This document shows positions 30,427 through 64,000 of a stretch of DNA of 64,000 nucleotides, piece by piece; position 1 is the stretch's first letter; the number at the start of each line of letters is the position of its first letter. Origin of the DNA: Mycobacterium vicinigordonae (GTDB taxonomy: Bacteria > Actinomycetota > Actinomycetes > Mycobacteriales > Mycobacteriaceae); contig NZ_CP059165.1 of the NCBI RefSeq assembly GCF_013466425.1, positions 372,001 to 436,000 on the forward strand, in the 5' to 3' direction. The notes under the pieces are model-generated. The model was not told where the DNA came from and ran no database searches. It was given only the letters and a program-made list of their open reading frames with translations. The translations under genes were made by a program, and so were the position numbers.

Positions 30427-32286
30427 TCACCCGCCGGTGAGGTCGCCGATCACCGACTCGACCGTATCGAGCGTCACGATGGTCTGGAACCCGCCGGCGA
30501 GCGTCAACAGTGCGACGTTCGCAGCGATCGGATTGCCGATCGCGTTGACCAGACCCATCGGGTCGCCGTTGACGGCCTGCTGGACGCCGTCCAGGAAGAG
30601 GTTGAAGTCGTACGACGGCAGCGTGGTCGCGATGGTGTTGGCGATGTCCGCGGTCGGCAGCAGCAGCGCGTAACCGTCGGCGGTCGCTTTGGTGATCGAG
30701 TTGACGATGTTGGTGTTTGCCGATCTGAGCGCGTCGATGAAGCTGTTCACCGGCGAGCCGGTGGCGCCCGGCAGCGTGAACGGCAGGCCGGCACCGCCTC
30801 CCACACCAGCCGGCAGTAGGTCGGTGAGCGACGGCAAGGAGGTCGGGACCATCGCTTGGATGTCGCCGACGAACGCACCCCAGCCCTGGCCGGCCAGGGC
30901 GACCTGGTCGCCGATGAAGTTCTGCGGAATCGGCGGGATCAGGCCGAACGGGGTCCACACGTCGGCGTAGGAAGTCGAGTATCCGTAGTGAGGGTCGCCG
31001 TAACCCCAGTTCACCAGGTAAGTCAGATTCGGTTCGACCAAGTCCGCCAACGCATTTCCGATCACCGGGATGGCGCGGATCGGCTGCACGAGGGGCAGAT
31101 GGTCATAGGTGATCATGTAGTAGTGGTCGAGACCGTTGGCAGCCGTTGTCGGGGACACCGGCAACTCGACCATCTTGTAGCCGGGGGCGAGCTGTCCCGT
31201 GGTGGGATTGATGATGTTCGGGTACGTGCCGTGGACGCTCTGGATGCCCAGGAATGCGTTGAGGTCGGCCAGGAAGTTGATCGGGTAGCGCGGGAAGTCG
31301 GTGTAGCCGTCGTACTGCAGCGAGAACATGTTGACCGGGTACCCGGAGTTGGCCGGAGTCGGGCCGTAGAAGTCCAGGCCCAGTGCCGGCAGGCTAAGGC
31401 CGGGAAAACGGGACAGCAGACCGCCGTTGGGGGCCATCGGGTTGCCCAGCAAGGTGAAACTGAGATCGCCTGTGTGCGGGCTACCCGCGGCGATCAGATT
31501 GCGCAACTCGATCGATGACAGGACGGCGCTCTGGGAGTAGCCCAGCACCGAGACCTTCTGCCCGGCGGTGATCAACCCGGTGGGACTGAAGAGTGCGTTG
31601 TGCAGTGCCGTGACACCGGTGGCTACCGACTGGTTGAGCGGTAGGTCCTTGATGTGGGTGAGCGGATACAACCCCTCGGGGGTGTTCAGCGGTATTGATA
31701 GCGGGTTGGTCACGTGAAACTGAATCCAGGGTCGGACACTTGCCATGTACGCGAGCGAAGGTATCGGCGTCCCGCTGCCGGACATGATCAGGGCTACGTC
31801 GTAGACGGTGGGCACCGACGTTCCAACGGGCATGGTGACCGGAGTCCCCCCGGACGCGGTCGCTGCCGGTCCCCCCAGCAGCGACTGCAGCGGGGCCAGC
31901 ACCGACTGAATGGGCGCGAGCAGCGGTTGCAGCGGAGCGAGTACCGGCGCGAACAGCGCCTCGATCGGTGAGGCGCTCGCCAGCGCGCCTGACAACACCG
32001 CCGCGTTGGCCACCTCGGCTTCGGCGTAGGCGCCACTGGCCGCGGCCAGTGCGCGGTTGAATTCGTCGTGGAATGCCACCGCTTGGCCGACGACGTTCTG
32101 GTATTCCAGGCCGAACGTGCGGAAGAGCTGGGCTGCGGCCTCGGACACTTCGTCGGCCGCGGCAGCGGCAAAGCCGGTCGTCTGGCCCGCGGCGGTGTCA
32201 GTCGCCTGGGCGAGCGCGGCGCGGATGCCAGCCAGGTCCTGGGCGGCGGCGGCCATCACATCCGGTTGTGTCGCTAGGTATGACAT
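30427..32286 (-). CDS. PE1: PE protein with PE-PPE (serine hydrolase) domain, PE1-like
   Basis: A 619-residue protein. The N-terminal PE domain (MSYLATQPDVMAAAAQDLAG, about residues 1-95) ends with YAEAE, matching the ESX secretion motif. After a linker rich in LAPLQ-type repeats comes a PE-PPE alpha/beta-hydrolase domain whose nucleophile serine is in VLGYSQSAVLSS; HYYMITYDHLPL and GYGDPHYGYST are conserved later blocks. Related PE-PPE enzymes are esterases or acyltransferases of trehalose lipids. It corresponds by order to Rv0151c. It is downstream of its paralogue and of the mmpS-mmpL genes on the same strand, so it may act on an exported lipid. Confidence 0.88.
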   Translation of the reverse strand: MSYLATQPDVMAAAAQDLAGIRAALAQATDTAAGQTTGFAAAAADEVSEAAAQLFRTFGLEYQNVVGQAVAFHDEFNRALAAASGAYAEAEVANAAVLSGALASASPIEALFAPVLAPLQPLLAPIQSVLAPLQSLLGGPAATASGGTPVTMPVGTSVPTVYDVALIMSGSGTPIPSLAYMASVRPWIQFHVTNPLSIPLNTPEGLYPLTHIKDLPLNQSVATGVTALHNALFSPTGLITAGQKVSVLGYSQSAVLSSIELRNLIAAGSPHTGDLSFTLLGNPMAPNGGLLSRFPGLSLPALGLDFYGPTPANSGYPVNMFSLQYDGYTDFPRYPINFLADLNAFLGIQSVHGTYPNIINPTTGQLAPGYKMVELPVSPTTAANGLDHYYMITYDHLPLVQPIRAIPVIGNALADLVEPNLTYLVNWGYGDPHYGYSTSYADVWTPFGLIPPIPQNFIGDQVALAGQGWGAFVGDIQAMVPTSLPSLTDLLPAGVGGGAGLPFTLPGATGSPVNSFIDALRSANTNIVNSITKATADGYALLLPTADIANTIATTLPSYDFNLFLDGVQQAVNGDPMGLVNAIGNPIAANVALLTLAGGFQTIVTLDTVESVIGDLTGG

Positions 32287-32493
32287 CGGCGAATTCCCTT
32301 CACGGCCAAGATATTCCGGTCACAAGCCGAGGTTGGAGCAGACCGCGTGACCCGGTGCTGAAGGTCGTCGGGCGGCCCGCTGATCTCTGGCTAGGAGCAA
32401 GACTAAAGCGGTCTGGTCAATCTCATAGTGGTTTTGCCGTCTAAACATCTGCCGAAGTTCGGTGCCCGCGCGATCGCCGTGGAATCGTGGCCA

Positions 32494-34125: not shown

Positions 34126-34250
34126 TCGAAATCCCTTCTAGAATCCGGTTTGAGTCTCCCGTCTCGCCGGTATCCGTTGAGGGTAAAGCGATTCCGCTGC
34201 GCTGTCCGGCCTTTGGGCCGACCTCCCATGAATTGCGCAGGCTTACTGCC

Positions 34251-37160
34251 TCAGCTGGACAGCTTCGGGATTTCGGCCGTCACCGCTTCGTCGTCTCTTT
34301 GCCCGAGTAGTAGGGATCGAACCAACGGCCGCGGCCCGGCGGACCGCAACAATTGACTTGCCGGACGGGGGCGTACCACTTGGGGCCACCAGAACCAACG
34401 TCCGAGCAGCGCCGCAATGGACGGGGTCATGAAGGAGCGCACGATCAATGTGTCGAATAGCAGGCCCAGGCCTATGGTGGTGCCCACCTGAGCAATGATG
34501 CGCAGGTCGCTGATTGCCATCGACATCATGGTCAGCGCGAAAACCATGCCCGCATTTGTCACCACTTTGCCGGTGCCGCCCATTGCCCGGATTATGCCGG
34601 TATGCAGACCCGCGGATATTTCCTCTTTGATGCGGGATACCAGCAGCAGGTTGTAATCGGACCCGACCGCCAAAAGGATGATCACCGACATCGGCAGCAC
34701 CATCCAGTGCAACTTGATATCAAGGATGTACTGCCAGATCAATACCGATAAGCCGAACGATGCTCCCAATGAAAGAGCCACCGTCCCCACGATGACGAGC
34801 GCAGCAATCATGCTCCGGGTGATGATGAGCATGATCACGAAAATGAGGCACAGCGCGCCAATTCCGGCGATGGCAAGGTCATATTTGGCGCCGTCGCGGA
34901 AGTCTTTGAATGTCGACGCGGTGCCGGCGACGTAGATTTTTGAGTTTTCCAGGGGCGTTGTCTTGAGAGCTTCCTCCGCCGCGGCGCGTAGCTGCTCGAC
35001 CCGTGCGATCCCCTCGGGTGTCGCCGGGTCGCCCTTGTAGGAGATGAAGAATCGTGCGGCTTTACCGTCGGGGGAAATGAAGGCACCCATGGCCCGTTGG
35101 AAATCCGCGTTATCGAATACTTCTGGAGGTAGGTAGAACGAGTCGTCGTTCTTCGCTTCGTCGTAGGCCTGGCCCATCGCGGTGGCCGCATCTGTCGACT
35201 CGTCCATCTGGCTAAGCACCCCGGCCATTGTGCTGTGCGTGGCCAGCAACATCTTTCGCATGTATTCCATGGTGTCGATGATCGGCAACAACTGCTGAGA
35301 CACCTGGGGCAGCAGTACATCGGTTGTGTTCAGGTCGACCAGCACTTCCTGGAATTTGTCGCTTTCGGCGTCGATGGCGTCCACCGCATCGAATATCGCC
35401 CTCAAGGAAGCGCAAATCGGGATTGCCTGACAATGCTTGTCCCAGTAGAAATAGCTCCGGATCGGGCGGAAAAAGTCCTCGAAATCGGAAATGTGGTCCT
35501 TCAGCTCAGCGACGATTGCGTACATTTCCTTGGTGTTTTCGATCGACGCGTGAGTGATACTGTTCAGCTCCAGCTGCAACTTGTACATCCGCTTGGTCTG
35601 CGCGATCTGCGAGCTCATCAAGTCGGCCTGCTTAAGCATGTCGTCAATGCGGACTTTGACATATTTCATCATCTGCAGCTGTGCCGCATTCTGCATGCTG
35701 ATCAGGAAAGGTATCGAGGTGTGCTGAATGGGTGTGCCCTCGGGACGCGTCACAGCCTGCACCCGCGAGACCCCGTGCACCCGGAAGAGCCGTTTAGCCA
35801 ACTTGTGCAATACCAGGAAGTCTGCCGGATTGCGCATGTCGTGATCGGTTTCGATCAGCAGAATCTCGGGCATCATGCGCGACTGTGAAAAATGCCGGTC
35901 CGCCGCCGCGTATCCGGTGTTCGCGGGAATATTCTGCGGGATATAAAGGCGATCGTTGTAGCTGGTTTCGTATCCGGGCAACGTCACGAGTCCGATGATC
36001 GCGATCGCAATTGTCGCGACGAGGATGGGCGCCGGCCAGCGGACGATCGCCGTGCCCACCCGGCGCCAGCGTCGAACGCCGATGCGGCGCTTCGGATCCA
36101 CGAGTTTGAATCGGGATCCGACGGCCAGAACGGCGGGAATCAGGGTCAGCGCGACTGCCACGGCGACGAACATGCCGACGGCGCAGGGCGCTCCCATCGA
36201 ATTGAATATGGGCATCCTGGTGATGCTGAGGCAAAGGATTGCCCCGGCGATCGTCAAACCAGAAGCCAGGACGACCGGCGCGACTCCCCGGTAGGTCGTG
36301 TAGTAGGCGGTTTCCGGATCCTCACCGGTTTGGCGTGCCTCCTGATAGCGACCGAAAAAGAAGATCGCGTAGTCGGTTCCGACCGCAATACCGAGGGCCA
36401 CCAAGAGATTGATGGAAAATGTGGAAAGCGAAAGAATGTCGCGGTGCGCGAGAAGCGCGACCACCCCTCGGGACGTGCCCACCGCGATGCCGACGGTGAT
36501 CAACAGCAGAATCACGGTGACGACCGAGCGGTATACGAGAAGCAGCATCACGAAAATAATCGCGACGCTCAACGCGGTGATTTTCAGAATGGACTTGTCA
36601 CCGCTGTGCACCATATCCGCCACGAGCGCGGCCGGGCCGGTGACGTAGACACTTACACCGTCGGGGGGATGAGTCCGGTTGACGATGCTGCGGACCGCGG
36701 CCACCGACTCGTGCCCCAGAGTCGTGCCCTGATTACCGGCCAGATTCAACTGCACATATGCGGCCTTGTTGTCGGCGCTTTGCGCCCCTGAAGCGGTGAC
36801 TCGATCGCCCCACAGATCCTGCACGTGCTGGACATGCTTGGGGTCATCCCGCAACCGTCGAATCAAGTCGTCGTAGTAGTCGTGCGCGTCGTCGCCGAGA
36901 GGTTGACGGCCCTCTAACACGATCATCGCGTAACTGTCCGAGTCGGACTCTTTGAAGTCTTTGCCCATCCGCACCATGGCCTCGACCGACGGTGCGTCCC
37001 GGGGACTGAGCTGGACCGAGTGTGCCTGGCCGGCCTCCTCGAGCGAGGGGATTGCCAAATTGACGAACAGTGCCAGTGCCACCCAGGCGAGGATGATCGG
37101 CACGGAGAATTTGCGGATCGCGCGGGCCAGCAACGGAACCTGGCGACTTTCGGTGCTCAT
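34251..37160 (-). CDS. MmpL family RND lipid transporter (second copy)
   Basis: A 969-residue RND-superfamily transporter. There are N-terminal hydrophobic segments ([18 protein letters not shown]), two large periplasmic loops, and two transmembrane bundles. The proton-relay Asp-Tyr pairs appear in [19 protein letters not shown] and [16 protein letters not shown]. MmpL proteins move lipids across the inner membrane; with MmpS and a tandem partner this resembles the MmpS4-MmpL4a-MmpL4b set used for glycopeptidolipids. It starts at ATG 37160, 25 bases after the stop of the upstream mmpL. It is a tandem duplicate of the next gene (shared GPRPLVR C-terminal motif). Confidence 0.92.
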
Positions 37161-37174
37161 GCTGTCTTCAGCTG
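37156..37174. repeat. Copy of the mmpS/mmpL junction at the mmpL/mmpL junction
   Basis: The sequence around the start codon of the second mmpL (37156-37174) matches 18 of 19 positions at 40064-40082, where the mmpS stop overlaps the first mmpL start. The first mmpL does not read through it: it stops at 37186, in another frame. The repeat therefore looks like a leftover of mmpS coding sequence carried along when mmpL was duplicated. Confidence 0.75.
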
Positions 37175-37185
37175 GGAATCCGCCA

Positions 37186-40068
37186 CTACCGTGGCTGCCT
37201 CAGTAGCGCCCGCACCAGTGGGCGCGGTCCCTCCGGCCGGAGCAGGAAGCTGGCTGGCCGGGGCCGGACCTGTAGTGGCCACCAGAACCATCGTCCAAGT
37301 GCTGCGGCGACGGCCGGTGTCATGAACGCCCGGACGACCAACGTGTCGAAGATCAGACCCATGCCGATCGTGGAGCCCAGTTGCCCGATGATGCGCAGGT
37401 CGCTCACCAACATCGACATCATGGTGAACGCGAATACCAGGCCGGCATTTGTCACGACCTTGCCGGTGCCCCCCATGGCGCGAATTATTCCGGTCTTTAT
37501 CCCTGCGGGTAACTCCTCTTTCATGCGGGATACCAACAGCAAATTGTAGTCGGAACCCACCGCCAACAAGACGATCACCGACATCGCGAGTACCACCCAA
37601 TGGATCGGCATGCCGATCAAATATTGCCAAACCAGTACCGACAAGCCGAAGGATGCGCCGAGCGACAGCAGAACGGTTCCCACAATGACCAAAGCGGCAA
37701 TAAACGCGCGCGTCATGAGCAGCATGATGACGAAGATCAGGCATAGTGCCGCAACGCCGGCGATCAAGAGATCGTATTTCGACCCGTCGACGAGGTCTTT
37801 CGTCATCGTCGCAGTACCGGTGAGATATACCGCCGCGGACTCCAACGGTGTCCCCTTGAGGGATTCCTCCGCCGCGGTTCTGATGGCATCGACGCGGGCC
37901 GTGCCGTCGGGTGAGGCGGGGTCTTCCCGCAGCGAAATAAGCATTCGCGCGGCTTTGCCGTCCGGCGACATGAATACGTCCAGGACGCGTTTGAAGTCTT
38001 TGTTCTTAAAGGCCTCCGGCGGGATGAAGAAAGAATCGTCGTCCTTTGCCGCGTCGAACGCTTTACCCATTGCCGTCGTGTTGCCGTTGTTGTTCTGGTC
38101 CATTAAACCCAGAGTTCCGGACATGGTGCTGTGCATGGCCAGCATCATGGTGCGCATACTCTGCATGGTCGCGATCATTTCCGGGAATTGGGTGAGCAGT
38201 TGCGGTAGCAGCACGTCGAGGCGATCGAGATCGGCGACGAGCAACTGCAACTTGTCGTCGATCTGGTCAACGCCGTCTATGGAATCGAAAATAGATCGCA
38301 GTGCCCAGCAGATCGGAATGTCAAAGCAATGCTTTTCCCAGTAGAAATACGCACGGATAGGTCTGAAGAAATCCTCGAAATCGGCGATCCGGTTGCGCAG
38401 CTGTTCGGTGAGGTCCTGTATGTCATGGGTATTGCCGACCATGTTGTGGGTGGTGGCGACGAGCTGTTGTAGCAGTTCGTACATGTGCTGCATGATCCCG
38501 ATGGTTTTCGTCAGCTCGTCGGCCTGCTTGAGCAGGTCGTCCATGCGGGCGCGCTGGAACACCATGCTCTGCATCTGGCCGGCCTGCGCCATGCTGAGCA
38601 TGAAGGGGATCGATGTGTGCGCGATAGGAGTGCCTTCGGGCCGGGTTATCGACTGCACCCTAGACACGCCCGGCACGGCCAAAACGCCCTTCGCCAATCG
38701 GTTCAGTACCAGGAAGTCGGCCGAATTCCGCATATCGTGGTCGGCTTCCACCAACACCATTTCGGGCGTCATCATTCGTGACTGCGGAAAATGTCGCTGC
38801 GCGGCCTCATAGCCGACTTCACCGGGAAATCCCTTGGGCAGGTAAAGCATGTCGTTGTAGCTGGGTTTGTACCCCGGCAGGGTCAACAGACCGACGAGTG
38901 CCACCGCGACCGTCGTGACAAGAATCGGCCCGGGCCACCGGACGATGGCGGTTCCGATGCGCCGCCATCCATACGATTTGACTTTGCGCTTGGGCTCGAA
39001 CAGGCGGACTCGACTTCCGGCGGCAAGAACAGCCGGAACGAGCGTGAGCGCGACCGCTACCGCGACGAGCACACCCACCGCGCAGGGTATGCCGATGGGT
39101 TGAAAGAACGGGAGCCGAGTAAAGCTCAGACAGAACAGCGCACCGGCGATGGTGGCTCCCGAGGCCAAGACAACCTTCGCCACCCCGTGGTAGGTCGTGA
39201 AGAAAGCTTGTTCCTTATCCTCGCCGGCCTGACGCGCTTCCTGGTAGCGGCCGACGAAGAAAATCCCGTAGTCCGTTCCGGCCGCGATCCCGATCGTGAC
39301 CAGCAAGTTGATCGCGTAGGTGGTCAAGCCGATGATCCCGTGATCGCCGAGCAACGCGACAATTCCCCGGGCAATCTGCAATTCGATCCCGACCAGCACC
39401 AGCAAGATGAGTACGGTGGCCACCGACCGGTAGACGAGCAGCAACGTTCCGAAGATCACCGCCAAGCTGACCAGGGTAATGAGCGCAACGGTTTTGTTGC
39501 CACTGCCGCTCATGTCCGAAACGATTGCCGCCGGGCCGGTGACATACGCTTTGACACCCGCTGGTTCCGGAGTCTTCGCGACGATGCTGCGGATCACCTC
39601 AACCGACGCGTTTGCCTCGGTTGACCCAGGCCTGCCGGCGAGGTTCAGCTGCACATAGACCGCTTTGCCGTCCGGGCTTTGCGCGGCCGCCGCCGTCAGT
39701 GGATCACCCCAGAAATTCTGGATGTGCTTCACATGCGGGTTTGACTCGAATTGATGAATCAGTTGGTCGTAATACCGATGAGCGTCGTCGCCGAGGGAGT
39801 GCTGGCCCTCCAAAACGACCATCGCCACGCTGTCGGAAGTGGATTCGTGGAAAGCCGCGCTCATGCGCTTGATGGCTTTGAACGAAGGAGCATCCTCCGG
39901 GCTCAGCGATACAGAATGCTCCTGCTCGACCTTTTCTAGCGGGGGAACACCGATGGAGACGATGACAGCTATGCCCAGCCAGGCCAGGATGATGGGCACC
40001 GCAAATCGGTGAATCGTTCGGGCCGCGAAGGGGCGGGACCGTTGGTCGTCCATCTGACCCCCACTCAT
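37186..40068 (-). CDS. MmpL family RND lipid transporter (first copy)
   Basis: A 960-residue MmpL paralogue of the following gene. Asp-Tyr pairs are in [19 protein letters not shown] and [17 protein letters not shown] cysteine-containing loop ([15 protein letters not shown]) in the second periplasmic domain is shared with the tandem copy. Its start overlaps the mmpS stop by four bases (ATGA), so MmpS and MmpL are made together, as in known mmpS4-mmpL4 operons. It ends abruptly ([14 protein letters not shown]), 14 or so residues shorter than its sister's C-terminal tail. It is expected to export the lipid made by the adjacent PKS and PapA genes. Confidence 0.92.
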
Positions 40069-49742: not shown

Positions 49743-49757
49743 AGGAGCCCTGCGCTG

Positions 49758-55302: not shown

Positions 55303-55399
55303 GCCGCGCCCCGCGCCCGTGCCGCATCAACAGGTTCGCAGCCCGCGGGTATTTTTGCCGTCGACATGGTGCCGGTCCTCGGCACCCGCGGTCGCCGGT

Positions 55400-56173
55400 T
55401 CAGTGCCAGCATTTCCACGGCGCTTTGCCGCTGGCCCACAGTTCTTCGAGAATGTTCTTGTCCCGCAGCGTGTCCATGGCCTGCCAGAATCCGGAATGCT
55501 CGAATGCCATCATCTGCCCCTCAGCGGCCAGGCGAGCCAGGGGGGAACCTTCCCACGCGGTTTGGTCGCCGTCGATGTGATCGAGTACCGCTGGAGACAG
55601 AACGAAAAATCCACCGTTGATGAGACCACCGTCGCCCGGTGGCTTTTCGACAAAACGCGTGACCCGGCCGCCGTCGCACTCGATGGCGCCGTAACGCCCC
55701 GGCGGTCGCACACCTGCAACCGTGGCATGACGCCCATGCTGACGGTGGAAGTCGATGCTTGCGGAGATGTCCAGATCGCTGAGCCCGTCGCCGTATGTGA
55801 AGCAGAAGGCCTCATCATTCTGGATGAAATTCGCGACCCGCTTGAGGCGCCCGCCGGTGAGGGTGTCTTCCCCGGTATCAACCAAGGTCACCCGCCACGG
55901 CTCCGCATGGTGCCGATGCACTTCCATGGTGTTCGCGGACATATCGAACGTTACGTCCGACATGTGCAGGAAATAGTTGGCGAAGTATTCCTTGATGACG
56001 TAGCCCTTATAGCCGCAACAGACGATGAATTCATCGATGCCGTGGTGGGAATAGAGTTTCATGATATGCCACAAGATCGGCCGCCCACCGATTTCTACCA
56101 TCGGTTTGGGCCGGATGACGGTCTCCTCGCTGAGCCGGGCACCTATGCCGCCGGCCAACAACACGGCTTTCAT
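55400..56173 (-). CDS. rfbF: Glucose-1-phosphate cytidylyltransferase
   Basis: A 257-residue nucleotidyltransferase with the family fingerprint: MKAVLLAGGIGARLSEET, IRPKPMVEIGGRPILWHIMK, FCFTYGDGLSDLD, and the C-terminal HSGFWQAMDTLRDKNILEEL and GKAPWKCW. It makes CDP-glucose from CTP and glucose 1-phosphate, the first step to 3,6-dideoxyhexoses and branched sugars such as caryophyllose. CDP-glucose 4,6-dehydratase, the usual next enzyme, is not in the window. Its start overlaps the stop of the DUF4422-like gene by four bases. Confidence 0.93.
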   Translation of the reverse strand: MKAVLLAGGIGARLSEETVIRPKPMVEIGGRPILWHIMKLYSHHGIDEFIVCCGYKGYVIKEYFANYFLHMSDVTFDMSANTMEVHRHHAEPWRVTLVDTGEDTLTGGRLKRVANFIQNDEAFCFTYGDGLSDLDISASIDFHRQHGRHATVAGVRPPGRYGAIECDGGRVTRFVEKPPGDGGLINGGFFVLSPAVLDHIDGDQTAWEGSPLARLAAEGQMMAFEHSGFWQAMDTLRDKNILEELWASGKAPWKCWH

Positions 56174-57018
56174 ATACTCGACCCCCGGCCAAGCCGGCTT
56201 CTCGACCGCTCCGACAATCCCGCAGAGTAACCCGAGTCATCGGTCACCACCGTGGTCATGTACCCAAACACACCACCCGGAATTTCGTTCGCGTACTTCT
56301 CCTTGAGATGGCGGATGAGTAGATAGGATCCGAGCCGCTCTCCGAGGAAGCCAACGGCTCTTACCTGGTACCGGTTGTACTTCTTGACGCGATCGCCATG
56401 TCGGATGAGAAATTGCCTGCCGACCAGCTCGATTTTGGACCACGTGCGTTTGAGCCATGATTTCGGGTATATGCCCAATTCAATTCCACAGGGAATAAAA
56501 TGTTCTGCCGCCAAGAACTCCGCCGCGGAATCCGCGTCGAGCACGCCAGTTTCTATCGCCAGGGATGCGTAGTCGAGAATGTCTCTGCGGTGATGAACCA
56601 AGCCGTAGTGGCCAACTACCGTCTTCTTGATGTGGAGGGGCTGGGCCACCAAAAACTCGAGGTTGTCGACGGGGGTGAATGCTGCCAAGTCCGCTGTTGC
56701 CGTCGTGTCCCCAAGGCGGAGCTCGCGCATGGTCGGATAAATCCTTGACTCAGTTCCTAACCGCACCGGCAGGACTCTCTTACGGTACGAAGAGACCTCA
56801 ATGAGGTCTGCGTCGGCCGAGAATTTTTCAATGACTATCGGCAACACATGTGTTCCAGCGGCACCGAATGCAATTGGTCTGGCTTCGTGCCAGAATCGAT
56901 CCAGCTGCTTTACATGAAATTCAGAGTCCTGGTCGAAATCCCCGAGTGCGATCCACTGCCCATACCAACCCTCAGGTAGGAGTGGCATCGCATGGGTGAC
57001 GCAGTACCTGTGAATCAC
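56170..57018 (-). CDS. Polysaccharide-biosynthesis protein, DUF4422-like
   Basis: About 282 residues. The N-terminus IHRYCVTHAMPLLPEGWYGQ, an HHRRD motif (YGLVHHRRDILDYASLAIE) and the closing NRYQVRAVGFLGERLGSYLL resemble DUF4422 proteins, which are found in capsule and O-antigen clusters and thought to be glycosyltransferases. Similarity is by eye, so the family is not certain. GTG 57018 is preferred because it places the conserved start at the N-terminus; ATG 57036 is possible. It is coupled to rfbF. Confidence 0.65.
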   Translation of the reverse strand: MIHRYCVTHAMPLLPEGWYGQWIALGDFDQDSEFHVKQLDRFWHEARPIAFGAAGTHVLPIVIEKFSADADLIEVSSYRKRVLPVRLGTESRIYPTMRELRLGDTTATADLAAFTPVDNLEFLVAQPLHIKKTVVGHYGLVHHRRDILDYASLAIETGVLDADSAAEFLAAEHFIPCGIELGIYPKSWLKRTWSKIELVGRQFLIRHGDRVKKYNRYQVRAVGFLGERLGSYLLIRHLKEKYANEIPGGVFGYMTTVVTDDSGYSAGLSERSRSRLGRGSSI

Positions 57019-57036
57019 GCCGCGCGAGCTCCGCAT

Positions 57037-57444
57037 GACTGGCTGGTATTCCTGAGCTCACCGTCGATTGTGAGCCGCTCTTGGATATCAGGAAGTCCTT
57101 GGTAGGGGCTCGGACACTGTCTTCCGGCAGTGATTTTCACTAGCTGCCTACAACCGTCCAAAAGGCCCCGCCGCCATAGCCTTCGACGGGCAAATCACGG
57201 TGGTATCGCCTGCCATGCGGCTAACTCTAACCTATGGCAATTGTGTCTACGCAAGAACCTGAAGTTTGGTGCGGCCGGAGTTGCATTGTGCTGCAGGGGT
57301 TGAACGTTTGCCGATGTTGCGGAGGTTCACGCTAGTGCGATGACTGACATTTCACGGGTTTCAGTGGTCCGCCACTGCGGTATGCGGCTGTGCCGTCCTT
57401 CCAGCAGACATCGCCGTACGGGGCGAGCAGTGCGGCCCGCATCA
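57037..57444. other. Intergenic stretch, possible relic at the 3' end
   Basis: These 408 bases separate the DUF4422-like gene from the next methyltransferase. Near 57355-57444 the minus strand can be read as LLAPYGDVCWKDGTAAYRSG, which looks protein-like but has no start or continuation and is not recognised. Otherwise nothing is seen; the upstream gene's promoter is presumably here. Confidence 0.35.
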
Positions 57445-58167
57445 TCAGGACGTCAGGCGTTGCGGCCGTCTCCCAGCAGCGTAACGCGCGATGACTAAAT
57501 GACCTGTGCCGAATTCAGTAGTGTCGCGCGCGAATTGGTAGTGACCACGCAAGACGTCGATCAAAGCTCGGGCCATGTCGATAAACGAAAAACTGTTGTA
57601 GAGTGTCCAGAAGTCGCAATAAACGTCTTCAATCAGATAGACGCCATCCGGGCTCAGCGAGTGCGGAAAAAGGCACCGGAAATTATTCACCAGACGGGAG
57701 CTCGACTGGCTGTCGGCGTCGATAATGGCGGTGAACGGCCCAAATTCTGTAGCCACGTCCCGCAAGAATGAAATGTCCCGAGCTCCACCCATTCGGACAC
57801 GCGTGCCGCTCTCATCCAGAATCTTCAGGAATTTTGAGTCAAAATCGATACCGATGACGAGTGAGCCGGGGTCAAGATAGTCTTTCCATTCTTGTTGAGA
57901 GTCCCAGTAGAAGCTGCCGATCTCGAGTAATCGTATCGGTCTCGAGCGATCAATTTCCGACTCATACAGCCCCAGGTGTTGCGATAGTCTGTGAACCCGC
58001 GGTGCTCGTTCGGCTGTGTCAGCCGTCGCTGGATCCAGCTCCGTTTCGACCGTCGTGATGATCGAAGCGTTCTCCTGTCCTAGAGATTTCAGCAGCCTTG
58101 CTCGGACGCGGTTACGGTTGCGACTGGCGCTGGGCGAAAATTTCGCGACAAACCTTGGGACGAACAT
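57445..58167 (-). CDS. Sugar O-methyltransferase-like protein with altered active site
   Basis: About 240 residues, similar in layout to MycE/ElmM-type rhamnose O-methyltransferases: RLLEIGSFYWDSQQEWKDYLD (residues 79-99), GSLVIGIDFDS, and SPDGVYLIEDVYCDFW, with Glu180-Asp181 as metal ligands. The usual DDGSHxxxH is replaced by D150-A-D-S-Q-S-S-S-R, removing both histidines, including the catalytic base position in relatives. It may be inactive, structural or mechanistically different. It is flanked by long spacers on both sides. Confidence 0.7.
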   Translation of the reverse strand: MFVPRFVAKFSPSASRNRNRVRARLLKSLGQENASIITTVETELDPATADTAERAPRVHRLSQHLGLYESEIDRSRPIRLLEIGSFYWDSQQEWKDYLDPGSLVIGIDFDSKFLKILDESGTRVRMGGARDISFLRDVATEFGPFTAIIDADSQSSSRLVNNFRCLFPHSLSPDGVYLIEDVYCDFWTLYNSFSFIDMARALIDVLRGHYQFARDTTEFGTGHLVIARYAAGRRPQRLTS

Positions 58168-58887
58168 CAGACCGCCGATCGTGGAGCACAGAACGCTGTC
58201 GTGTCGCGCGCCAACACGTTGTGCAGACTATGAACGCCTTCGGTCCGCAAGTCCTGGTGAGAATTGGTTCTGCTGTGGCCGAGGCCCGCAATATCGCGGC
58301 CCTCCGACCTCCCGCGACCCAGGCCTACTGGATTGTCATGCTGCACGAATGAATTCATCTGATTCGCCCGTATCGGGCGGGGGTCGCCCGAGTCTTGGAT
58401 GAGGTAGTCGAGACATATCGGCGATGCATGTTCTTCGTCGCCATGGGCCCCCTTTCGGGCCGTCGAGCCCCTCCAATGCTGGGGGCGATGGGTTTGTAAC
58501 AGTGGCTGCCGCTACAACCAAGGGATCGTAGTCTTCGAGAGGCGCCGTTATGCCGGGCAGGCTCGGTTCGGCGGCTGATTCTTTATCGGGCACCGGGCAA
58601 CCGATATTCGTGTGGTTGTGGGCCTCGGTGGTGTGCGTGCCGTCGAATCTCACGACGGCGTGCCGACCCGGCCGGTGCAGAGCCTGTGAAACTGGCCTGA
58701 TTTACCATCCCGCGCAGTCGCCCACTGGCTTAGCAGGGGTGACCACCACATATAGTGCCGCTATGAGCCATAACAGACGCACTATTGCCAAGTGCGCCGC
58801 GACGGGTTTTTTCCGCCGCGAGCTGAGGTGGCGAATCGGCCCAATATCCGGTATCGCAATAATGCTGAAATCTGCACCGAGCGCGCA
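58168..58887. other. Intergenic region between methyltransferase and sulfotransferase genes
   Basis: About 720 bases with several short overlapping frames on both strands (58098-58402, 58336-58653, 58550-58897), none with a convincing start or recognisable domain. The two flanking genes diverge, so promoters for both are expected here. A frame at 58762-58897 (MSHNRRTIAKCAATG) was considered but is unsupported. Confidence 0.45.
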
Positions 58888-59877
58888 GTGGTGCTGAAAG
58901 CCACTGCCAAGGAGAACGGCCCGGAAACCCACCGGACTGTCCTGTTCGTATTGGGTGTGAACCGGTCGGGAACGTCAGCGCTAACACGGGTTCTCTCCTT
59001 GTGCGGTGCTGCGCTGCCGACCGGACTTGTGGGCGCCAACGCAGGCAATCCGCGTGGCTACTGGGAGCCTTTCGAATCGCATCGGGTCAATTACACGATC
59101 TTGAGGCGACACGGCTCGGAATGGTTCGACCCCACGATGCGCTTGCAGGAGAAAGGCGCATTTGAGCCCGCCGAGAGGGCTGCGTACATCACCGAGATCG
59201 AGGCGTACCTGAGGACGTTGCCGGTGGCGCCGGTGGTGGTGCTCAAGGACCTGAATATCACGGCACTGTCCGAATTGTGGTTCGAGGCAGCGCGTCTGGC
59301 CGGACTGAATGTTGCTGTAGTGATCGCGGTGCGCCACCCGCAGGAGGTCGCCGCGTCACTGGCAGCGTTGAATCGAACATCGCCGGAACTCGCCAGTGCG
59401 TTGTGGTTGAAAGGTAACCTGCTGGCCGAGAGAACCACCCGGACAATGCCACGCGTATTCGTCGATTACTCGTGTCTGCTTGAGAATTGGCGCCGGGAGG
59501 TAAAGCGGATTTCAACTGCGCTCCAGCTCGACCTGGATTCGCGGGACGCGGAGGCGATCGAGGGTTTTCTCGAACCGAGTCTGCACCGGCAGCGTCAACG
59601 AGAGGGCGGCGGCCCAGTGGCGGAGCCGTTCGGCACCGACTGGGTCTCCGTGGTTCACCAAGCGGTGTCCGCGGCAGCGCTCGACGAATCCTGGGAGCAG
59701 GATTCGCTGGATGGGGTCTTCGAGGCGTATGTGGCAGGGGAACGTGGCTTCCGGATTGCGTTGCAAAATTTTCACCGTTTTCATCGGCTAAATCGTCTGC
59801 TCTTCCGACCTTCTCTGGTGAAGCTGGTGGTCAAGGTGAAAGCAATCGCGCACCGACGCAAGGGGCCTTGGGCCTGA
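58888..59877 (+). CDS. Sulfotransferase-family protein (first paralogue)
   Basis: About 329 residues. The 5'-phosphosulfate loop is LFVLGVNRSGTSALTRVL at residues 19-36, and the 3'-phosphate segment is VIAVRHPQEVAASLAAL. The usual KDPR motif is KDLN here. GTG 58888 is chosen because it gives an N-terminus equal in length to the paralogue at 60930; an earlier GTG-type start at 58792 cannot be excluded. It would sulfate a lipid or sugar, plausibly the glycolipid of this locus. It is separated from its paralogue by the GAP gene on the other strand. Confidence 0.82.
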   Translation: MVLKATAKENGPETHRTVLFVLGVNRSGTSALTRVLSLCGAALPTGLVGANAGNPRGYWEPFESHRVNYTILRRHGSEWFDPTMRLQEKGAFEPAERAAYITEIEAYLRTLPVAPVVVLKDLNITALSELWFEAARLAGLNVAVVIAVRHPQEVAASLAALNRTSPELASALWLKGNLLAERTTRTMPRVFVDYSCLLENWRREVKRISTALQLDLDSRDAEAIEGFLEPSLHRQRQREGGGPVAEPFGTDWVSVVHQAVSAAALDESWEQDSLDGVFEAYVAGERGFRIALQNFHRFHRLNRLLFRPSLVKLVVKVKAIAHRRKGPWA

Positions 59878-59942
59878 CGCGAAATGGCCGCGGCGGCAAG
59901 ATTATTGATGCCGCGACGACGGCTGAGCTTCGCCGGCAGCAC

Positions 59943-60746
59943 TCAGATGAGTCCCAATCCGTGACCCAGCTGAAAGAATCCGACCAATGAGAAAATACCT
60001 ATCAGGACTTGGCGCCGGTTGGCCGCCGCCCAGTCGTGCAGCGGCCGCAGCACGGCGAGGGTTTTGTCCGGCACGATCAGGTAACTGACGAGTGCAATTT
60101 CGACAACCGCAAACATCCCGAAGACAAAGGCAACGGCAGCGACGACCTGCACGCCGAACGCAGCCCCTGAGCCCATGATGGTCGTGTCGACGAATAACAC
60201 CAGAATTGGCGGCGGGAACCCGCAGAGGCCGAATACGAATGCGACCCATAACGCTCCGTCATCCCAGGCGTTTTGTAGACGGCCGACTAGCCGCCGAAAC
60301 GCCGACCCACCCTCGTTCGCGGTATCTTGTGCACGGCCAAATGGCGATGACAATTGCGTCGACTCATCGGCGTCCATGACCAGCACCGATGAGTTGCCAT
60401 CGGATGTCGCCAGCTGCGCCCGCTGGTGGGCGACCAAGCGCACCGTGATGAGCGTGGCAATCGACAGGGCAAGCACGCCCATCCCTATCTGAAAGTATCG
60501 CGCGCCGGCGCTCGTGCCCGCCGAAGCCGGATCGCCCAGATAGGGAAACGCGGGTGTCGACCGCAGCACAATAAGGGGAATAACCATCCCGGCGATATTC
60601 ACGATCATGCTGCCCAGCCAGTAGGCCAGCAAATTTTGCACCGGCCGTGGTCGCGAGATCATCAAAACGATGACAGCGAGCAGCACTGGATTAATCGTGA
60701 ACAGAAACGCCAGACCCAACAGTGAACCCCACACGGCCAGCGACAC
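59943..60746 (-). CDS. GAP-family integral membrane protein (glycolipid export)
   Basis: A 267-residue membrane protein with about six helices: the opening SLLGLAFLFTINPVLLAVIVLMIS with a conserved NP, then LLAYWLGSMIVNIAGMVIPLIV, and after a charged loop (AQLATSDGNSSVLVMD) further helices with FGLCGFPPPILVLFVDTTIM. This matches the GAP/Sap proteins, required in mycobacteria for surface display of glycopeptidolipids and helpers of sulfolipid transport (relatives Rv1517 and Rv3821). GTG 60746 start. Its presence strongly supports surface glycolipid export here. Confidence 0.85.
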   Translation of the reverse strand: MSLAVWGSLLGLAFLFTINPVLLAVIVLMISRPRPVQNLLAYWLGSMIVNIAGMVIPLIVLRSTPAFPYLGDPASAGTSAGARYFQIGMGVLALSIATLITVRLVAHQRAQLATSDGNSSVLVMDADESTQLSSPFGRAQDTANEGGSAFRRLVGRLQNAWDDGALWVAFVFGLCGFPPPILVLFVDTTIMGSGAAFGVQVVAAVAFVFGMFAVVEIALVSYLIVPDKTLAVLRPLHDWAAANRRQVLIGIFSLVGFFQLGHGLGLI

Positions 60747-60929
60747 TACTTTGTTACTTGCCGTCCGTCAGCCATCAGTGCCGCTTGCCATTGAAGTCAC
60801 AGCAAGCATCCTTTGTTTCGGGACCGGTAACTCGGCGGAGGGCTATGACGTAAATCCGGGACTGGCGAGAGGTGAATGCGGTGATTTTCAGCTCGCCCCG
60901 AATACCAACCGGTGGGCTACTGTGCCGTT

Positions 60930-61952
60930 ATGTGTCCCCGCCGAGGCGCCATCGTCGCGGAACGCCGGACGCGCCCGGTTGCCTTGTTCGTCCTGGGCGG
61001 GGCTCGTTCCGGATCCGCTGCCGTCGCGCGCCTCCTCGCCCGCTGTGGGGCAGCCCTGCCCGCCATGCCGGGCGACGCTCGAACTGACGATATGACTGGC
61101 GGTCGCCAGCTCCGCACACCCCGCATCATCAACGACAAGATCCTGCGCCGGCATGGCAGCAGCGGGGTCGACCCGACCTTGCGTCTTCAGGACGAAAGCA
61201 CGTTTGACGTAGAGGAGCGGGAGGCCTGCGTCGCGGAGATGAAGGGGTTTCTTGCCGGCGCCAGTAACGCGCCCTTCGTGGTCATCAACGATCCGCGGGT
61301 TTCGCAGCTCTTCGGACTGTGGTCCGAGGCGGCGGCCGCCGCCGGATTCGACGTCGCCGTCGTCATCGTCGTGCGGCACCCGAGCGAGGTCGTGACTTCG
61401 GTGGCCGTTGGCGGTGCCGCCTTGCCGGAACTCTCGAGTGCCCTTTGGCTGAAAGCAAATCTGCTGGCCGAGATTGAGACGCGCGGAATGGTGCGCGTAT
61501 TCGTGGACTATGCCAACCTTCTGCAGGACTGGCGTAGAGAATTAGAAAGGATTTCGGTGGCGCTCGGGGTCGAACTCGACACCGGAGACGAGGCGGCAAT
61601 CGAACGCTCTCTCAAATCAAATCCGGATCGCCAGCGGGATTGTGGCTCAGTGGCGGATCTCGCGGGCGCGAACTGGATTTCACAGGTACACGAAGAGTTG
61701 TTCTTGGCGGCGCGGGATGAGCCCTGGGATCAGTCCGTCCTCGATCATGTTTTCGCGGCCTACCAGGCCAGCGAACGCAGTTTCCGACCCGTATTCGCAA
61801 TCTTTGAGTATCTCGACAAGATGAACCCGCACGTTCGCCCGTCGGTCATGAAGATGATCGATCGGGCTCGAGTCACCGCGAACCGGCGCCGCATAACCGG
61901 ATCGTCGCCCCTACGTGCCGGCCTACCGGGGTGGCCCCTCCGACGGCATTGA
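60930..61952 (+). CDS. Sulfotransferase-like protein (second, diverged paralogue)
   Basis: About 340 residues. It aligns with the 58888 gene over its length, for example ILRRHGSSGVDPTLRLQDE versus ILRRHGSEWFDPTMRLQEK and the VRHPSEVVTS segment. At the phosphosulfate loop it reads GARSGSAAVARLL (residues 24-36) instead of RSGTSALTRVL, and the KDPR-type motif is NDPR, so the lysine is missing. It may be inactive or have a different substrate. ATG 60930 is preferred to GTG 60912. Confidence 0.78.
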   Translation: MCPRRGAIVAERRTRPVALFVLGGARSGSAAVARLLARCGAALPAMPGDARTDDMTGGRQLRTPRIINDKILRRHGSSGVDPTLRLQDESTFDVEEREACVAEMKGFLAGASNAPFVVINDPRVSQLFGLWSEAAAAAGFDVAVVIVVRHPSEVVTSVAVGGAALPELSSALWLKANLLAEIETRGMVRVFVDYANLLQDWRRELERISVALGVELDTGDEAAIERSLKSNPDRQRDCGSVADLAGANWISQVHEELFLAARDEPWDQSVLDHVFAAYQASERSFRPVFAIFEYLDKMNPHVRPSVMKMIDRARVTANRRRITGSSPLRAGLPGWPLRRH

Positions 61953-62200
61953 AGAAATGCCGCGCGCAACGGATCGACACCCGCGCCGCACGAAGCCGGC
62001 TCGACTCGCGCTTCCGACAAGGTCGGTTATGTGATGAAATTACCAGCGCACTAAAAACTCACTTCGATCGCAAACATTGGAATTCGAGTCAATAGCAACA
62101 GAGATGTCGGAATATGCTGCCGGGCGGTTGAGCGGCCCTGAAGTTCTCGCTTTGATTTCGCAGCATATTCACAGGAAGTGAAAGGCAAGAGGTCGCCACG

Positions 62201-63481
62201 ATGAAATTTGTGCTGGCATTCTATGGGACTCGCGGAGATGTCGAGCCCGGTGTTGCCGTCGGTCGCGAGTTAGCCCGCCGTGGCCACGACGTTGCGATGG
62301 TGGTCTCTCCGGACCTGGTCGGCTTCGCCGAGCAGGCGGGACTCAAAGCCGTTGCCTGCGGGCCGGATGTGCGGACCTGGCAAGACATCAACCGCGATTT
62401 CTGGGCACGCTTCTTGCGCAAGTTCTGGAAGAACTTCTGGCGAGTTGGTGAGCTGCGGGAGCTGTTGCGCGATGACTGGCGATTCTTGAAACAGTGCTGG
62501 CAAGACATCGGTTCGACGCTGCGAACCCTGGCGCAGGGCGCCGACCTGCTGTTCACCGGTGTGCTCGGCGAGGAGGCGGCCGGCAATGTCGCTGAGTATT
62601 ACGGCATGCCGTTGGCCACCCTGCATGTGTGGCCGATACGCGCCAACGGTCAACTCGTTCCGGGCTTGCCAGCGCCGCTTGGGCGCTCCTTGATGAAAGT
62701 GTCCGAATGGTTGGGTTGGCCCATGTTAAAACGGCTGGAGGATCCGCAGCGTCGTGAACTGGGCCTACCGAAGGCCACCGAGCCCTCGCCGTGGCGCATC
62801 GCCAAGCGCGGATCGCTGGAGATCCAGGCCTTCGATGACATCTGCTTTCCCGGGTTAGCCGCCGAGTGGGCGCAGTGGGACGGCCAACGGCCCTTTGTCG
62901 GCGCGTTGACCATGGATTTGCGCACGGATTCTGATGACGAAGTCATGTCGTGGATAGCCGCCGGAAGCCCCCCGATCTGCTTCGGATTCGGCAGCATGCC
63001 AGTCGATTCCGCCGGTGAGACGCTCGCCATGATCAGCGCGGCATGTGCGGAGTTGGGCGAGCGGGCGTTGGTGTGTGCGGGCGCGAGCGACTTCACTGGG
63101 GTGCCCGTATTCGACAACGTCAAGGTGGTGGACACGATGAATTACTCGACCGTCTTTCCCGCCTGCCGCGCAGTCGTACACCACGGTGGTGCGGGCACCA
63201 CGGCCGCCAGCTTGCGCGCGGGCGTGCCCACGCTGGTTCTGGCGACCGATCTCGACCAGACGCTTTGGGGTGCTCGGGTCAAGCAACTGAAAGTTGGTAC
63301 CGCGCGGCGCTTTTCAGCCACCACGCAAAAATCCTTGGTCGCCGATCTGCGCACTATCCTAGAGCCGCAATACGCAGCGCGAGCGCGCGATGTCTCCACC
63401 CGCATGAGCACGCCGGCGCAAAGCGTGGCCGCTGCCGCAGACCGTCTGGAAGATTTCGTCCGTCTCAAGCGCGTTGGCTGA
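62201..63481 (+). CDS. Family-1 (UGT-like) glycosyltransferase
   Basis: A 426-residue GT-B fold glycosyltransferase. N-terminal KFVLAFYGTRGDVEPGVAVGRELARRGH and the C-terminal donor-binding VHHGGAGTTAASLRAGVPTLVLAT with DLDQTLWGARVKQL are the hallmarks of the group containing mycobacterial glycopeptidolipid and phenolic glycolipid glycosyltransferases (Rv1524/Rv1526c-like). It would add a sugar, perhaps rhamnose or 6-deoxytalose, to the lipid. It starts at ATG 62201 after aagagg. The 248 bases upstream are AT-rich and gene-free, so a new promoter is likely. Confidence 0.92.
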   Translation: MKFVLAFYGTRGDVEPGVAVGRELARRGHDVAMVVSPDLVGFAEQAGLKAVACGPDVRTWQDINRDFWARFLRKFWKNFWRVGELRELLRDDWRFLKQCWQDIGSTLRTLAQGADLLFTGVLGEEAAGNVAEYYGMPLATLHVWPIRANGQLVPGLPAPLGRSLMKVSEWLGWPMLKRLEDPQRRELGLPKATEPSPWRIAKRGSLEIQAFDDICFPGLAAEWAQWDGQRPFVGALTMDLRTDSDDEVMSWIAAGSPPICFGFGSMPVDSAGETLAMISAACAELGERALVCAGASDFTGVPVFDNVKVVDTMNYSTVFPACRAVVHHGGAGTTAASLRAGVPTLVLATDLDQTLWGARVKQLKVGTARRFSATTQKSLVADLRTILEPQYAARARDVSTRMSTPAQSVAAAADRLEDFVRLKRVG

Positions 63482-63533
63482 CGCCCAATGTCCAGCCACG
63501 CAGGACGTCCCTGATCGGCAGGTCAACACAACC

Positions 63534-64000
63534 ATGAAAATCGCGCTGGCAAGTTACGGCACGCGCGGCGACATCGAGCCATGCGTCGCCGTCGCGCGTG
63601 AACTACTGCGCCGCGGGCATGAGTTGCGGATGGCTGTCCCACCCGACCTGATCGGTTTCGTCGAGGCTGCCGGGCTCTCCGCTGTCGCCTACGGCCCGGA
63701 TTTGCAGGCGGTTCTGGACGCGCACCGCAATTTCTGGACGCACTTCTTCCGCAACTTCTGGAAAGTGCGGGAATTGATCAAGCTGCGGCGCGAAGCCGTG
63801 CAACCCTTCCTGCAGAGCTGGAAGGACATCATCGCCACCCTGACCACCCTGGCCGACGGCGCCGATCTGCTTTTCACCGGCGTGAATTTCGAGGACGCCG
63901 CCGGCAACGTCGCCGAGTACTACGACATTCCGTTGGCCACGCTGCACCTTTTTCCGTTGCGGGCCAACGGCCAGTTCGTGCCGTTCCTGCCACCGCGTGC
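63534..64000 (+). CDS. Second family-1 glycosyltransferase (3' truncated by window)
   Basis: Starts at ATG 63534 and runs past the window end. The N-terminus KIALASYGTRGDIEPCVAVARELLRRGH and the later LFTGVNFEDAAGNVAEYYDIPLATLHLF are closely parallel to the preceding gene, so the two are tandem duplicates that probably add different sugars. At least 155 residues are visible, all matching the acceptor-binding half. The donor domain lies outside. Confidence 0.9.
   Translation, partial: MKIALASYGTRGDIEPCVAVARELLRRGHELRMAVPPDLIGFVEAAGLSAVAYGPDLQAVLDAHRNFWTHFFRNFWKVRELIKLRREAVQPFLQSWKDIIATLTTLADGADLLFTGVNFEDAAGNVAEYYDIPLATLHLFPLRANGQFVPFLPPR

Follow-up and report, generated by a model that had tools for sequence, protein, structure and literature searches.

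What does a mycobacterial gene cluster make when lipid exporters, an acyltransferase, a polyketide synthase (PKS), sugar-tailoring enzymes and sulfotransferases stand side by side? The question is raised by a 64,000-nucleotide stretch of Mycobacterium vicinigordonae (contig NZ_CP059165.1, positions 372,001 to 436,000; G000:C1:372001-436000), hereafter the window, from a source genome of 6.27 Mb in one contig (G000; other genomes carry G numbers where they must be told apart). A sequence-only reading of the window had proposed a single surface-glycolipid-type locus combining these functions, and this part held, the core standing together in 14 orthologous loci. Its proposed backbone, a methyl-branched acyl glycolipid, did not: a nonribosomal peptide synthetase (NRPS) lies just beyond the window and points to a nonribosomal lipopeptide. 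The window holds the 5' half of a gene island that runs beyond the window end, and we conclude that this island probably serves to make and export a lipopeptide that is glycosylated, acylated and likely sulfated, as a shortened and horizontally gained variant of the GL8P-type locus (the "second glycopeptidolipid (GPL)-like" locus, which in M. abscessus yields the glycosylated lipooctapeptide GL8P). The gene content and order, the NRPS domain order, the insertion, the conservation of the locus and the deletion of its RfbG gene were all observed directly.

The island and its synthetase

The island inside contig NZ_CP059165.1 measures about 58.2 kb, bordered by a PE-PPE gene on one side and by a gene for a tyrosine phosphatase on the other. 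Among 24 other genomes of the genus, these two genes are about 70–140 bp apart in G006, G007, G010, G015 and G017, against 58.2 kb in G000; G023 has both genes in non-adjacent positions, and the remaining 18 gave no such pair among the matches listed (no PE-PPE match at threshold, or a lower-identity one elsewhere). The GC content of third codon positions (GC3) is 0.61–0.80 in the 23 island genes versus 0.80–0.90 in 10 of the 11 flank genes measured, the sole exception being a PE_PGRS gene (0.72). An rpoB tree of 20 genomes places G000 as sister to G006 (support 100/100), its nearest sampled relative, which is without the island at the flank-gene site, whereas in a tree of seven locus proteins (FastTree, support 1.0) it groups with G256 and G092 as their sister, its own branch being long (0.287). 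Because the flank genes are adjacent in relatives, GC3 differs and the two trees disagree, we read the island as acquired by horizontal gain. At the left junction, the sequence upstream of the PE-PPE gene is, read by eye, common to relatives; no repeats were found in the 501 bp around it, the two junctions being compared by eye only. A plasmid relative was rejected, as a search with window positions 30427–48544 returned only short matches in four Streptomyces plasmid records.

By motif reading, the NRPS runs C-A-T-E-C-A-T-C-A-T-E-C-A-T-C-A-T-C-A-T-E-C-T (condensation, adenylation, thiolation and epimerase domains), so that an epimerase follows each of modules 1, 3 and 6; in its last 3,198 residues, Pfam recognised only C, A (with A C-terminal) and PP domains. 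Genomes G116, G267, G143, G276, G256 and G304 hold a six-module synthetase (N1, open frames of 8,108–8,168 codons) and a two-module one (N2, 2,687–2,803 codons) that begins with an A domain; the motif pattern overlooked some of their E domains (for example that following module 6 and, in G304, that following module 3), and in G116 and G267 it also missed a C domain. Where specificity letters are readable, modules 1–5 of G000 agree with N1 of these six genomes; the exceptions are one G/A position in A5 and, in G267, one F/Y position in A1 (A3 was read but for two letters in every genome, A5 but for one letter in G116 and G267, and A5 of G304 was not read). G000 has no counterpart of the relatives' module 6 (DFWTLG...); its final A domain belongs to the Thr type, and its final E domain resembles the module-8 E of N2. 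Among the nine best matches of each segment, the G000 T6-E is 71–73% identical to N2 ends versus 66–68% to other segments; its tail C is 65–71% identical to the N2 end versus 64–67% for N1-type segments and its tail T 59–70% versus 58–61%, with ranges that overlap or touch. From the specificity letters of modules 1–5 together with the N2-like T6-E and tail, the G000 synthetase looks like a fusion of N1 modules 1–5 with the final module and the tail of N2, and a lipohexapeptide product is predicted where the relatives make an octapeptide. A condensation-family search of the one-contig genome found no second such NRPS; its other matches were a multidomain cluster at 4.14 Mb, probably mycobactin-like by size and layout, and three open reading frames (ORFs) of 485–571 residues. 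Among the openly licensed papers listed for mycobacterial lipohexapeptides, none concerned a mycobacterial surface lipid by title. Elsewhere, the NRPS end of M. kyorinense E861 (G118:C171:1-12264, L096) shows the specificities Thr, Phe-type, Thr, unlike the common N2, and is perhaps another backbone variant.

The locus type was followed through the genus with searches of 396 genomes each, using RfbF, the NRPS starter, the acyltransferase and the sulfotransferase as queries. Orthologous loci proved common: the acyltransferase occurs at 68–76% identity in 29 other genomes. In at least 25 of these the NRPS start lies on the same contig, 11–29 kb away, among the matches listed; in G118 the locus is split over contigs, and G201, G324 and G361 were not among the matches listed. 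All 29 also carry a sulfotransferase on the acyltransferase contig, less than 20 kb from that gene (0.9–19.3 kb by start coordinates). Fetched stretches of 15 genomes were compared gene by gene, of which G162 holds a different locus and was excluded. In the resulting 14 loci, the methyltransferase at 48981, the acyltransferase and the sulfotransferase are always present, the P450 in 13 (the G118 contig ends) and Gap in 12; RfbF, RMNT and the genes of the 56170 and 57445 types occur in 6/14 each, the PKS in 4, the RmlC-like gene in 3, the energy-coupling factor (ECF) transporter in 2 and a close TylF in 1. The stretches of G118, G159 and G255 stop inside or before MmpL/MmpS, and that of G116 shows one MmpL only. 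Named relatives are M. franklinii (G267), M. houstonense (G255), M. peregrinum (G021), M. frederiksbergense (G305), M. kyorinense (G118), Mycolicibacterium sp. CBMA 247 (G143), M. saopaulense (G074), M. holsaticum (G256) and M. burgundiense (G304). We call G116 M. chelonae-type from the matches of its sulfotransferase, whose close homologues occur in M. chelonae (96%), M. immunogenum (84%), M. saopaulense and M. franklinii.

Sulfotransferases, tailoring and export genes

The two sulfotransferases named by the sequence-only reading stood, both matching PF13469 below its curated cut-off; all 18 aligned family members match it as well (E up to 0.01, best 1.9e-6). In the alignment, sulfotransferase 1 keeps the RSGTS loop and RxPxEVxxS, which we take to be the 5'-phosphosulfate-binding (5'-PSB) loop and the 3'-phosphate motif for 3'-phosphoadenosine-5'-phosphosulfate (PAPS). 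Its AlphaFold model (predicted local distance difference test, pLDDT, 74) was matched by Foldseek to TPST1 (8e-6) and M. tuberculosis STF1 (1.2e-4), with template modelling (TM) scores of about 0.3–0.5; sulfotransferase 2 is matched best by the second copies that G092 and G256 carry, and no PDB chain matched the family by sequence at E up to 0.1. Profile, motifs and fold agree with the PAPS-dependent sulfotransferase family, with an activity that is predicted only. Given this family, these motifs and this fold, a sulfated product is plausible as a reasoned prediction. At E up to 1e-85, 152/396 genomes hold a sulfotransferase, so the family also serves other loci. Sequence cluster P0008 (143 sequences) could be the M. 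abscessus sulfotransferase. In the openly licensed literature, no paper on a sulfated glycopeptidolipid was found; among the papers listed, none on sulfate and NRPS treated this locus by title, and none on M. abscessus and sulfotransferase did so by title and abstract start.

Between the acyl and sulfotransferase genes lies a group suggesting that RfbF, the RmlC-like protein, the DUF4422-like glycosyltransferase (GT) and three O-methyltransferases may add a methylated sugar. The three sugar-type O-methyltransferases were rightly named beforehand, RMNT and TylF by Pfam and the third via its family profile only. RMNT reaches just 74.6 bits in the NCBIfam rhamnosyl O-methyltransferase model, far below its cut-off of 400, and the TylF-type protein has a close orthologue (76%) in G276 only. 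The 57445–58167 protein has no Pfam match as a single protein; its family profile matches PDB 3ssm (E 1.1e-14) and the demethylmacrocin O-methyltransferase 8ia9 (2.5e-14), presumably MycE and TylE. The 56170–57036 family matches Pfam DUF4422 in 5/8 members (E up to 1, best 0.005) and gave no match in a PDB sequence search; Foldseek placed WbbM first (E 0.022) from a poor model (pLDDT 54), a lead only.

The expected RmlC and RfbF pair fared unevenly: RfbF exceeds its cut-off, and the RmlC-like protein stays below that of the rmlC equivalog (TIGR01221, 146.9 versus 155.75 bits). In G276 and G304 an RfbG gene lies between the two; in G000 a scar keeps its start and probably its last codons, with about 975 bp gone by comparison with those two genomes. 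The best RfbG match elsewhere in G000 is 50% identical (2.707 Mb) and might or might not serve a CDP-sugar pathway. The CDP-sugar chemistry proposed by the sequence-only reading thus retains its RfbF and becomes doubtful, since RfbG is deleted and the best genomic match is just 50% identical. That reading had also pointed to three genes to be sought beyond 64 kb: the NRPS was found, FadD was not seen in the scanned ORFs, and the CDP-glucose 4,6-dehydratase gene is the one deleted at the locus. Copies of RfbF at 81% identity or more occur in 32 other genomes, with one 73-residue fragment in G295; only 6 of the 32 have it in this locus type, so RfbF was rejected as its marker, and in G131, G146, G153 and G162 it lies near other lipopeptide NRPSs. 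Among the openly licensed papers listed for mycobacteria and glucose-1-phosphate cytidylyltransferase, none bore on this by title. Sugar modules of relatives (G256:C1:3890312-3892589, G092:C8:106642-108838, G118:C171:28847-31071) hold CEVCG-type C-methyltransferase-like and small oxidoreductase-like genes, named by eye, a pair that suggests a branched sugar there.

The Mas-type PKS, the MmpS-MmpL-MmpL set (PF05423 and two PF03176 matches) and the Gap protein (PF11139) were borne out, the PKS by its six-domain order and by NCBIfam Pks2_ls1_myc (NF041183; 3282 bits, curated cut-off 2400). Orthologues in relatives are 59–67% identical for MmpL and 54–63% for MmpS, the latter next to MmpL. The PapA-like acyltransferase has its HxxxDG motif; WS_DGAT matches are weak and confined to 4 of 16 family members, with none in the window protein, and a PDB sequence search with the family gave no match. 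Because loci in which no PKS was found still contain the acyltransferase, and the rhamnose of GL8P is O-acylated, the enzyme would by analogy make this ester, here fed by the PKS. Of the two glycosyltransferases claimed, the first is complete in the window and the second (63474–64802) runs past its end.

Two further features were unlisted in the sequence-only reading: the class I methyltransferase at 48981–49742, whose orthologues are 74–79% identical in the 14 loci, and the ECF-type transporter at 49758–52648, also present in the G304 and G217 loci. Nocardia genomes (L146, L152, L154, L163, L169, L172) carry 63–65% relatives of that methyltransferase. A second double-ABC gene, 64% identical, lies elsewhere in the genome, at G000:C1:4056169-4058172.

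Two PE-PPE hydrolases had been counted as locus enzymes. Both genes are present; locus membership was rejected, because in five relatives the second of them (32494–34125) neighbours the phosphatase gene without the insertion, which makes the pair flank, and neither appears in the 15 fetched stretches. By M. tuberculosis gene order they presumably resemble PE1/PE2 (Rv0151c/Rv0152c). A PE_PGRS protein adjoins the pair (window 27817–29997, + strand), and GC reaches 75% over 28001–30000, where the GC skew is 0.25. On the right, the order is phosphatase, acyl-CoA dehydrogenase, PNT subunits, TetR and PE-PPE, which to us recalls Rv0153c-Rv0159c of M. tuberculosis; this third PE-PPE protein lies about 6 kb beyond the island end (L004:16324-17751, − strand).

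Table 1. Features of the island and its borders. Plain coordinates are window positions; those with the prefix G000 are contig positions.
Feature	Coordinates	Strand	Basis or remark
Two PE+PE-PPE proteins	30427-32286, 32494-34125	-	Pfam PF00934+PF08237; flank, outside island
Island, in-window part	34126..64000	both	island end G000:464354 (window 92354 if extended)
Two MmpL transporters	34251-37160, 37186-40068	-	PF03176, 752 and 726 bits
MmpS accessory protein, TTG start	40065-40493	-	PF05423, 192 bits
PapA-like (condensation-superfamily) acyltransferase	40769-42193	-	HxxxDG motif, as HNLIDG
Mas/Pks2-type PKS, KS-AT-DH-ER-KR-ACP	42245-48544	-	domain scan
Class I S-adenosylmethionine methyltransferase	48981-49742	+	PF13649
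ECF-type transporter: CbiQ; double-ABC protein	49758-50594 (probably); 50591-52648	-	family scans
Rhamnosyl-O-methyltransferase/CmcI family (RMNT)	52744-53553	-	PF04989, 310.7 bits
TylF-type sugar O-methyltransferase	53765-54634	-	PF05711
RmlC-like 3,5-epimerase	54751-55302	-	PF00908
RfbG (CDP-glucose 4,6-dehydratase) gene scar	55303-55420	-	alignment with G276, G304
RfbF glucose-1-phosphate cytidylyltransferase	55400-56173	-	TIGR02623 (G1P_cyt_trans), 457 bits, cut-off 300
Probable DUF4422/GT111-like glycosyltransferase	56170-57036	-	weak Pfam and fold match
Sugar O-methyltransferase, macrolide-sugar-methyltransferase related	57445-58167	-	family profile
Sulfotransferase 1	58792-59877	+	PF13469, RSGTS loop, RxPxEVxxS
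Gap/SfLAP family membrane protein	59943-60746	-	PF11139, 175.5 bits
Sulfotransferase 2, less conserved loop	60912-61952	+	weak PF13469; alignment
GT28/EryCIII-like glycosyltransferase 1	62201-63481	+	family scan; 68-80% matches in 14 loci
GT28/EryCIII-like glycosyltransferase 2	63474-64802 (to G000:436802)	+	crosses window end at 64000; 65-78% in relatives
P450	G000:436825-438246	-	70-76% matches in relatives
MbtH	G000:438710-439003	+	PF03621, 97 bits
Six-module NRPS, 8,211 residues	G000:439000-463635	+	motif reading; open frame 8,214 codons
ICMT/PEMT-type methyltransferase	G000:463645-464316	-	family scan; then flank phosphatase
Tyrosine phosphatase (flank)	G000:464352-465329	-	right island border

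The proposed pathway and its alternatives

In the pathway that we propose, the starter C domain would N-acylate D-allo-Thr, modules 2–5 (assigned by position) would add Ala, D-Phe, Ile and Tyr, and the final NRPS2-type Thr/epimerase module would add D-allo-Thr to give a lipohexapeptide. The two GT28-type enzymes may glycosylate a threonine hydroxyl, and the PapA-like enzyme may O-acylate the sugar; the Pks2/Mas-type PKS would probably supply the chain, a methyl-branched one. Tailoring or extension of the glycan would fall to the three sugar methyltransferases, the DUF4422-like glycosyltransferase and the RfbF/RmlC-like pair, the sulfotransferases would add sulfate, and MmpS/MmpL/MmpL with Gap would move the lipid outward. 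We infer the residues, acyl chain, glycan, sulfate and export from these genes.

Several observations weigh against this reading. The hexapeptide rests on one assembly with an exact 539-bp repeat in the NRPS (G000:445822-446361 and 456610-457149, the C-terminal subdomains of A2 and A5), and C6 is ambiguous, matching C8 of G276 N2 and C6 of G256 N1 near-equally. Neither a FadD nor a thioesterase was found among the island ORFs scanned, and the CDP-sugar branch may be dead. Both sulfotransferases fall below the Pfam PF13469 cut-off (24.1 and 22.8 versus 27 bits), and in the alignment the second keeps the PAPS motifs partly, with a changed loop. The published GL8P formula, C90H150N8O24, is without sulphur (PMC11978893). 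The GL8P match itself runs via M. chelonae-type and M. franklinii orthologues and a gene order drawn from the literature.

The NRPS repeats, which include a second exact one of 268 bp between the C-terminal subdomains of A2 and A6, could reflect recent gene conversion, as real recombination, or an assembly collapse. If the shortening were a collapse, the true layout would be two NRPSs with eight modules, making an octapeptide with extra tailoring. The repeats do connect A2, A5 and A6, the join sits between A5 and the last module as a collapse would place it, and the double match of C6 fits as well. Yet the genome is a single contig, which suggests long reads, 711 of 24,585 60-mers are repeated, and the longest exact repeat stays under 600 bp; we consider a collapse unlikely and retain the six-module synthetase.

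The weak Pfam scores, the diverged loop of sulfotransferase 2 and the sulphur-free formula would also suit an unsulfated glycolipopeptide, with sulfotransferases that use another substrate or are relics. This is a real but lesser possibility in our judgement: sulfotransferase 1 retains its PAPS motifs, its orthologue accompanies the acyltransferase in 29/29 genomes, and the G116 copy has close homologues in four named species. A decaying, non-functional island seems rather improbable. Fast-evolving genes (the long branch of G000), the RfbG deletion and the lost NRPS modules could be signs of decay, but each of the 23 genes in the island has an intact reading frame, and that of the shortened NRPS is kept through 8,211 codons. 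As for a peptide-free, methyl-branched acyl glycolipid of lipooligosaccharide, sulfolipid-1 (SL-1) or trehalose polyphleate type, the Pks2-level score of the PKS and the PapA-like, Gap/SfLAP and MmpL families common to those pathways speak in its favour; we nevertheless give it very little credence, for NRPS, MbtH and P450 follow directly in the same island, FadD is missing from the ORFs scanned, and the NRPS-side genes persist in loci of which 10/14 show no PKS in the fetched stretches. A stand-alone PKS glycolipid locus was rejected.

The glycosylated, acylated and likely sulfated lipopeptide thus stays our preferred product. We put forward a bolder version of it tentatively: the product would be a new surface lipid, a lipohexapeptide that is both sulfated and glycosylated, whose O-acyl chain is methyl-branched and whose glycan bears several O-methyl groups; its synthetase would have arisen when the two GL8P synthetases lost two modules and fused, and sulfation would be general and overlooked in the GL8P-type lipids of rapid- and slow-growing mycobacteria. 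Sulfation of that lipid class is an unproven prediction; the published GL8P structure has no use for the sulfotransferase found in each of the 29 genomes that hold a close acyltransferase. The shortened NRPS, this sulfotransferase-acyltransferase pairing and the acquisition of the island with subsequent module loss stand out most, and the island suggests that surface molecules may change through NRPS module loss and sugar-module swapping.

Comparison with known systems

The Mps synthetase of the classical GPL locus carries a terminal reductase. The SL-1 locus comprises the trehalose sulfotransferase Stf0, Pks2, PapA1/A2, MmpL8 and Sap, and the lipooligosaccharide locus pks5/fadD/papA with sugar genes, for a product with a trehalose core; the pks-papA3-mmpL10-fadD23-PE block we take to be linked to trehalose polyphleates. 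Set against these SL-1 genes, our island differs in its NRPS core, in the lack of FadD among the scanned ORFs and in a sulfotransferase without PDB sequence match. Its NRPS core also argues against a lipooligosaccharide locus. With the classical GPL locus (mps1/mps2), as described in PMC1885439, the island shares mmpS4-mmpL4a-mmpL4b, gap, mbtH, glycosyltransferases and sugar methyltransferases, whereas the classical NRPS pair makes a tripeptide-aminoalcohol and the six modules of G000 end in C-T, with no reductase domain seen. A Pks2/Mas-type PKS, PapA-like protein, MmpL and SfLAP recur in the SL-1 locus and, by PMC1885439, in the pks-papA3-mmpL10-fadD23-pe block of the GPL locus; as a trehalose polyphleate block the island does not qualify, having no FadD in the scanned ORFs and PE-PPE genes that are flank.

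Among the related loci, those of M. holsaticum G256 and of G092 share the PKS, acyltransferase, RfbF, RMNT, DUF4422-like and 57445-type genes and two sulfotransferases. Unlike G000, they keep an RfbG-like ORF, hold the extra C-methyltransferase-like/oxidoreductase-like pair (by eye) and lack the RmlC-like gene and a close TylF match; G256 also has the two-NRPS layout.

In M. abscessus, MAB_4690c/4691c encode a bimodular and a hexamodular NRPS; epimerases stand at 1, 3, 6 and 8 of a core T-A-F-I-Y-L-T-T, and GL8P bears an N-terminal stearyl, with acylated rhamnose and 2-O-methylrhamnose on Thr-8 (PMC11978893). A GL8P-less mutant is attenuated, and anti-GL8P antibodies of patients were proposed as a marker in the same account, whose main text contains no sulfotransferase, papA or P450 terms. 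Other sources name MmpS 4705c, MmpL 4704c/4703c, glycosyltransferase 4695c, P450 4693 and MbtH 4692c (PMC11925935, PMC8526041, PMC12455991). Our island resembles this locus (MAB_4689c-MAB_4705c) in MmpS-MmpL-MmpL, glycosyltransferases, P450, MbtH, a lipopeptide NRPS and epimerases at 1, 3 and 6, and in having MbtH and P450 beside the NRPS with MmpS-MmpL-MmpL at the opposite end. In modules 1–5 the readable specificities are those of G116 (M. chelonae-type) and G267 (M. franklinii), with the differences given above; the match to MAB_4691c is indirect. The combination that the sequence-only reading did not recognise is thus, by literature gene order, largely that of a characterised locus as regards the core (PMC11978893); the PKS, CDP-sugar genes, methylation, sulfotransferases and NRPS shape remain its own. 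Against the 6+2 modules and octapeptide of GL8P, G000 has one six-module NRPS, and relative to the M. abscessus genes named above it adds the PKS, ECF transporter, RfbF/RmlC-like genes, three sugar O-methyltransferases and two sulfotransferases. Because of this single six-module NRPS, with no second one in the genome, we file the locus as a GL8P-type variant and not as a GL8P producer. According to its 2025 description, conservation of the second GPL-like locus is limited to the M. abscessus complex and few relatives, with NRPS composition varying elsewhere (PMC11978893); we find the 6+2 NRPS layout in M. chelonae-type and M. franklinii genomes and, likewise with agreeing specificity letters, in M. 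holsaticum, M. burgundiense and a Mycolicibacterium sp.

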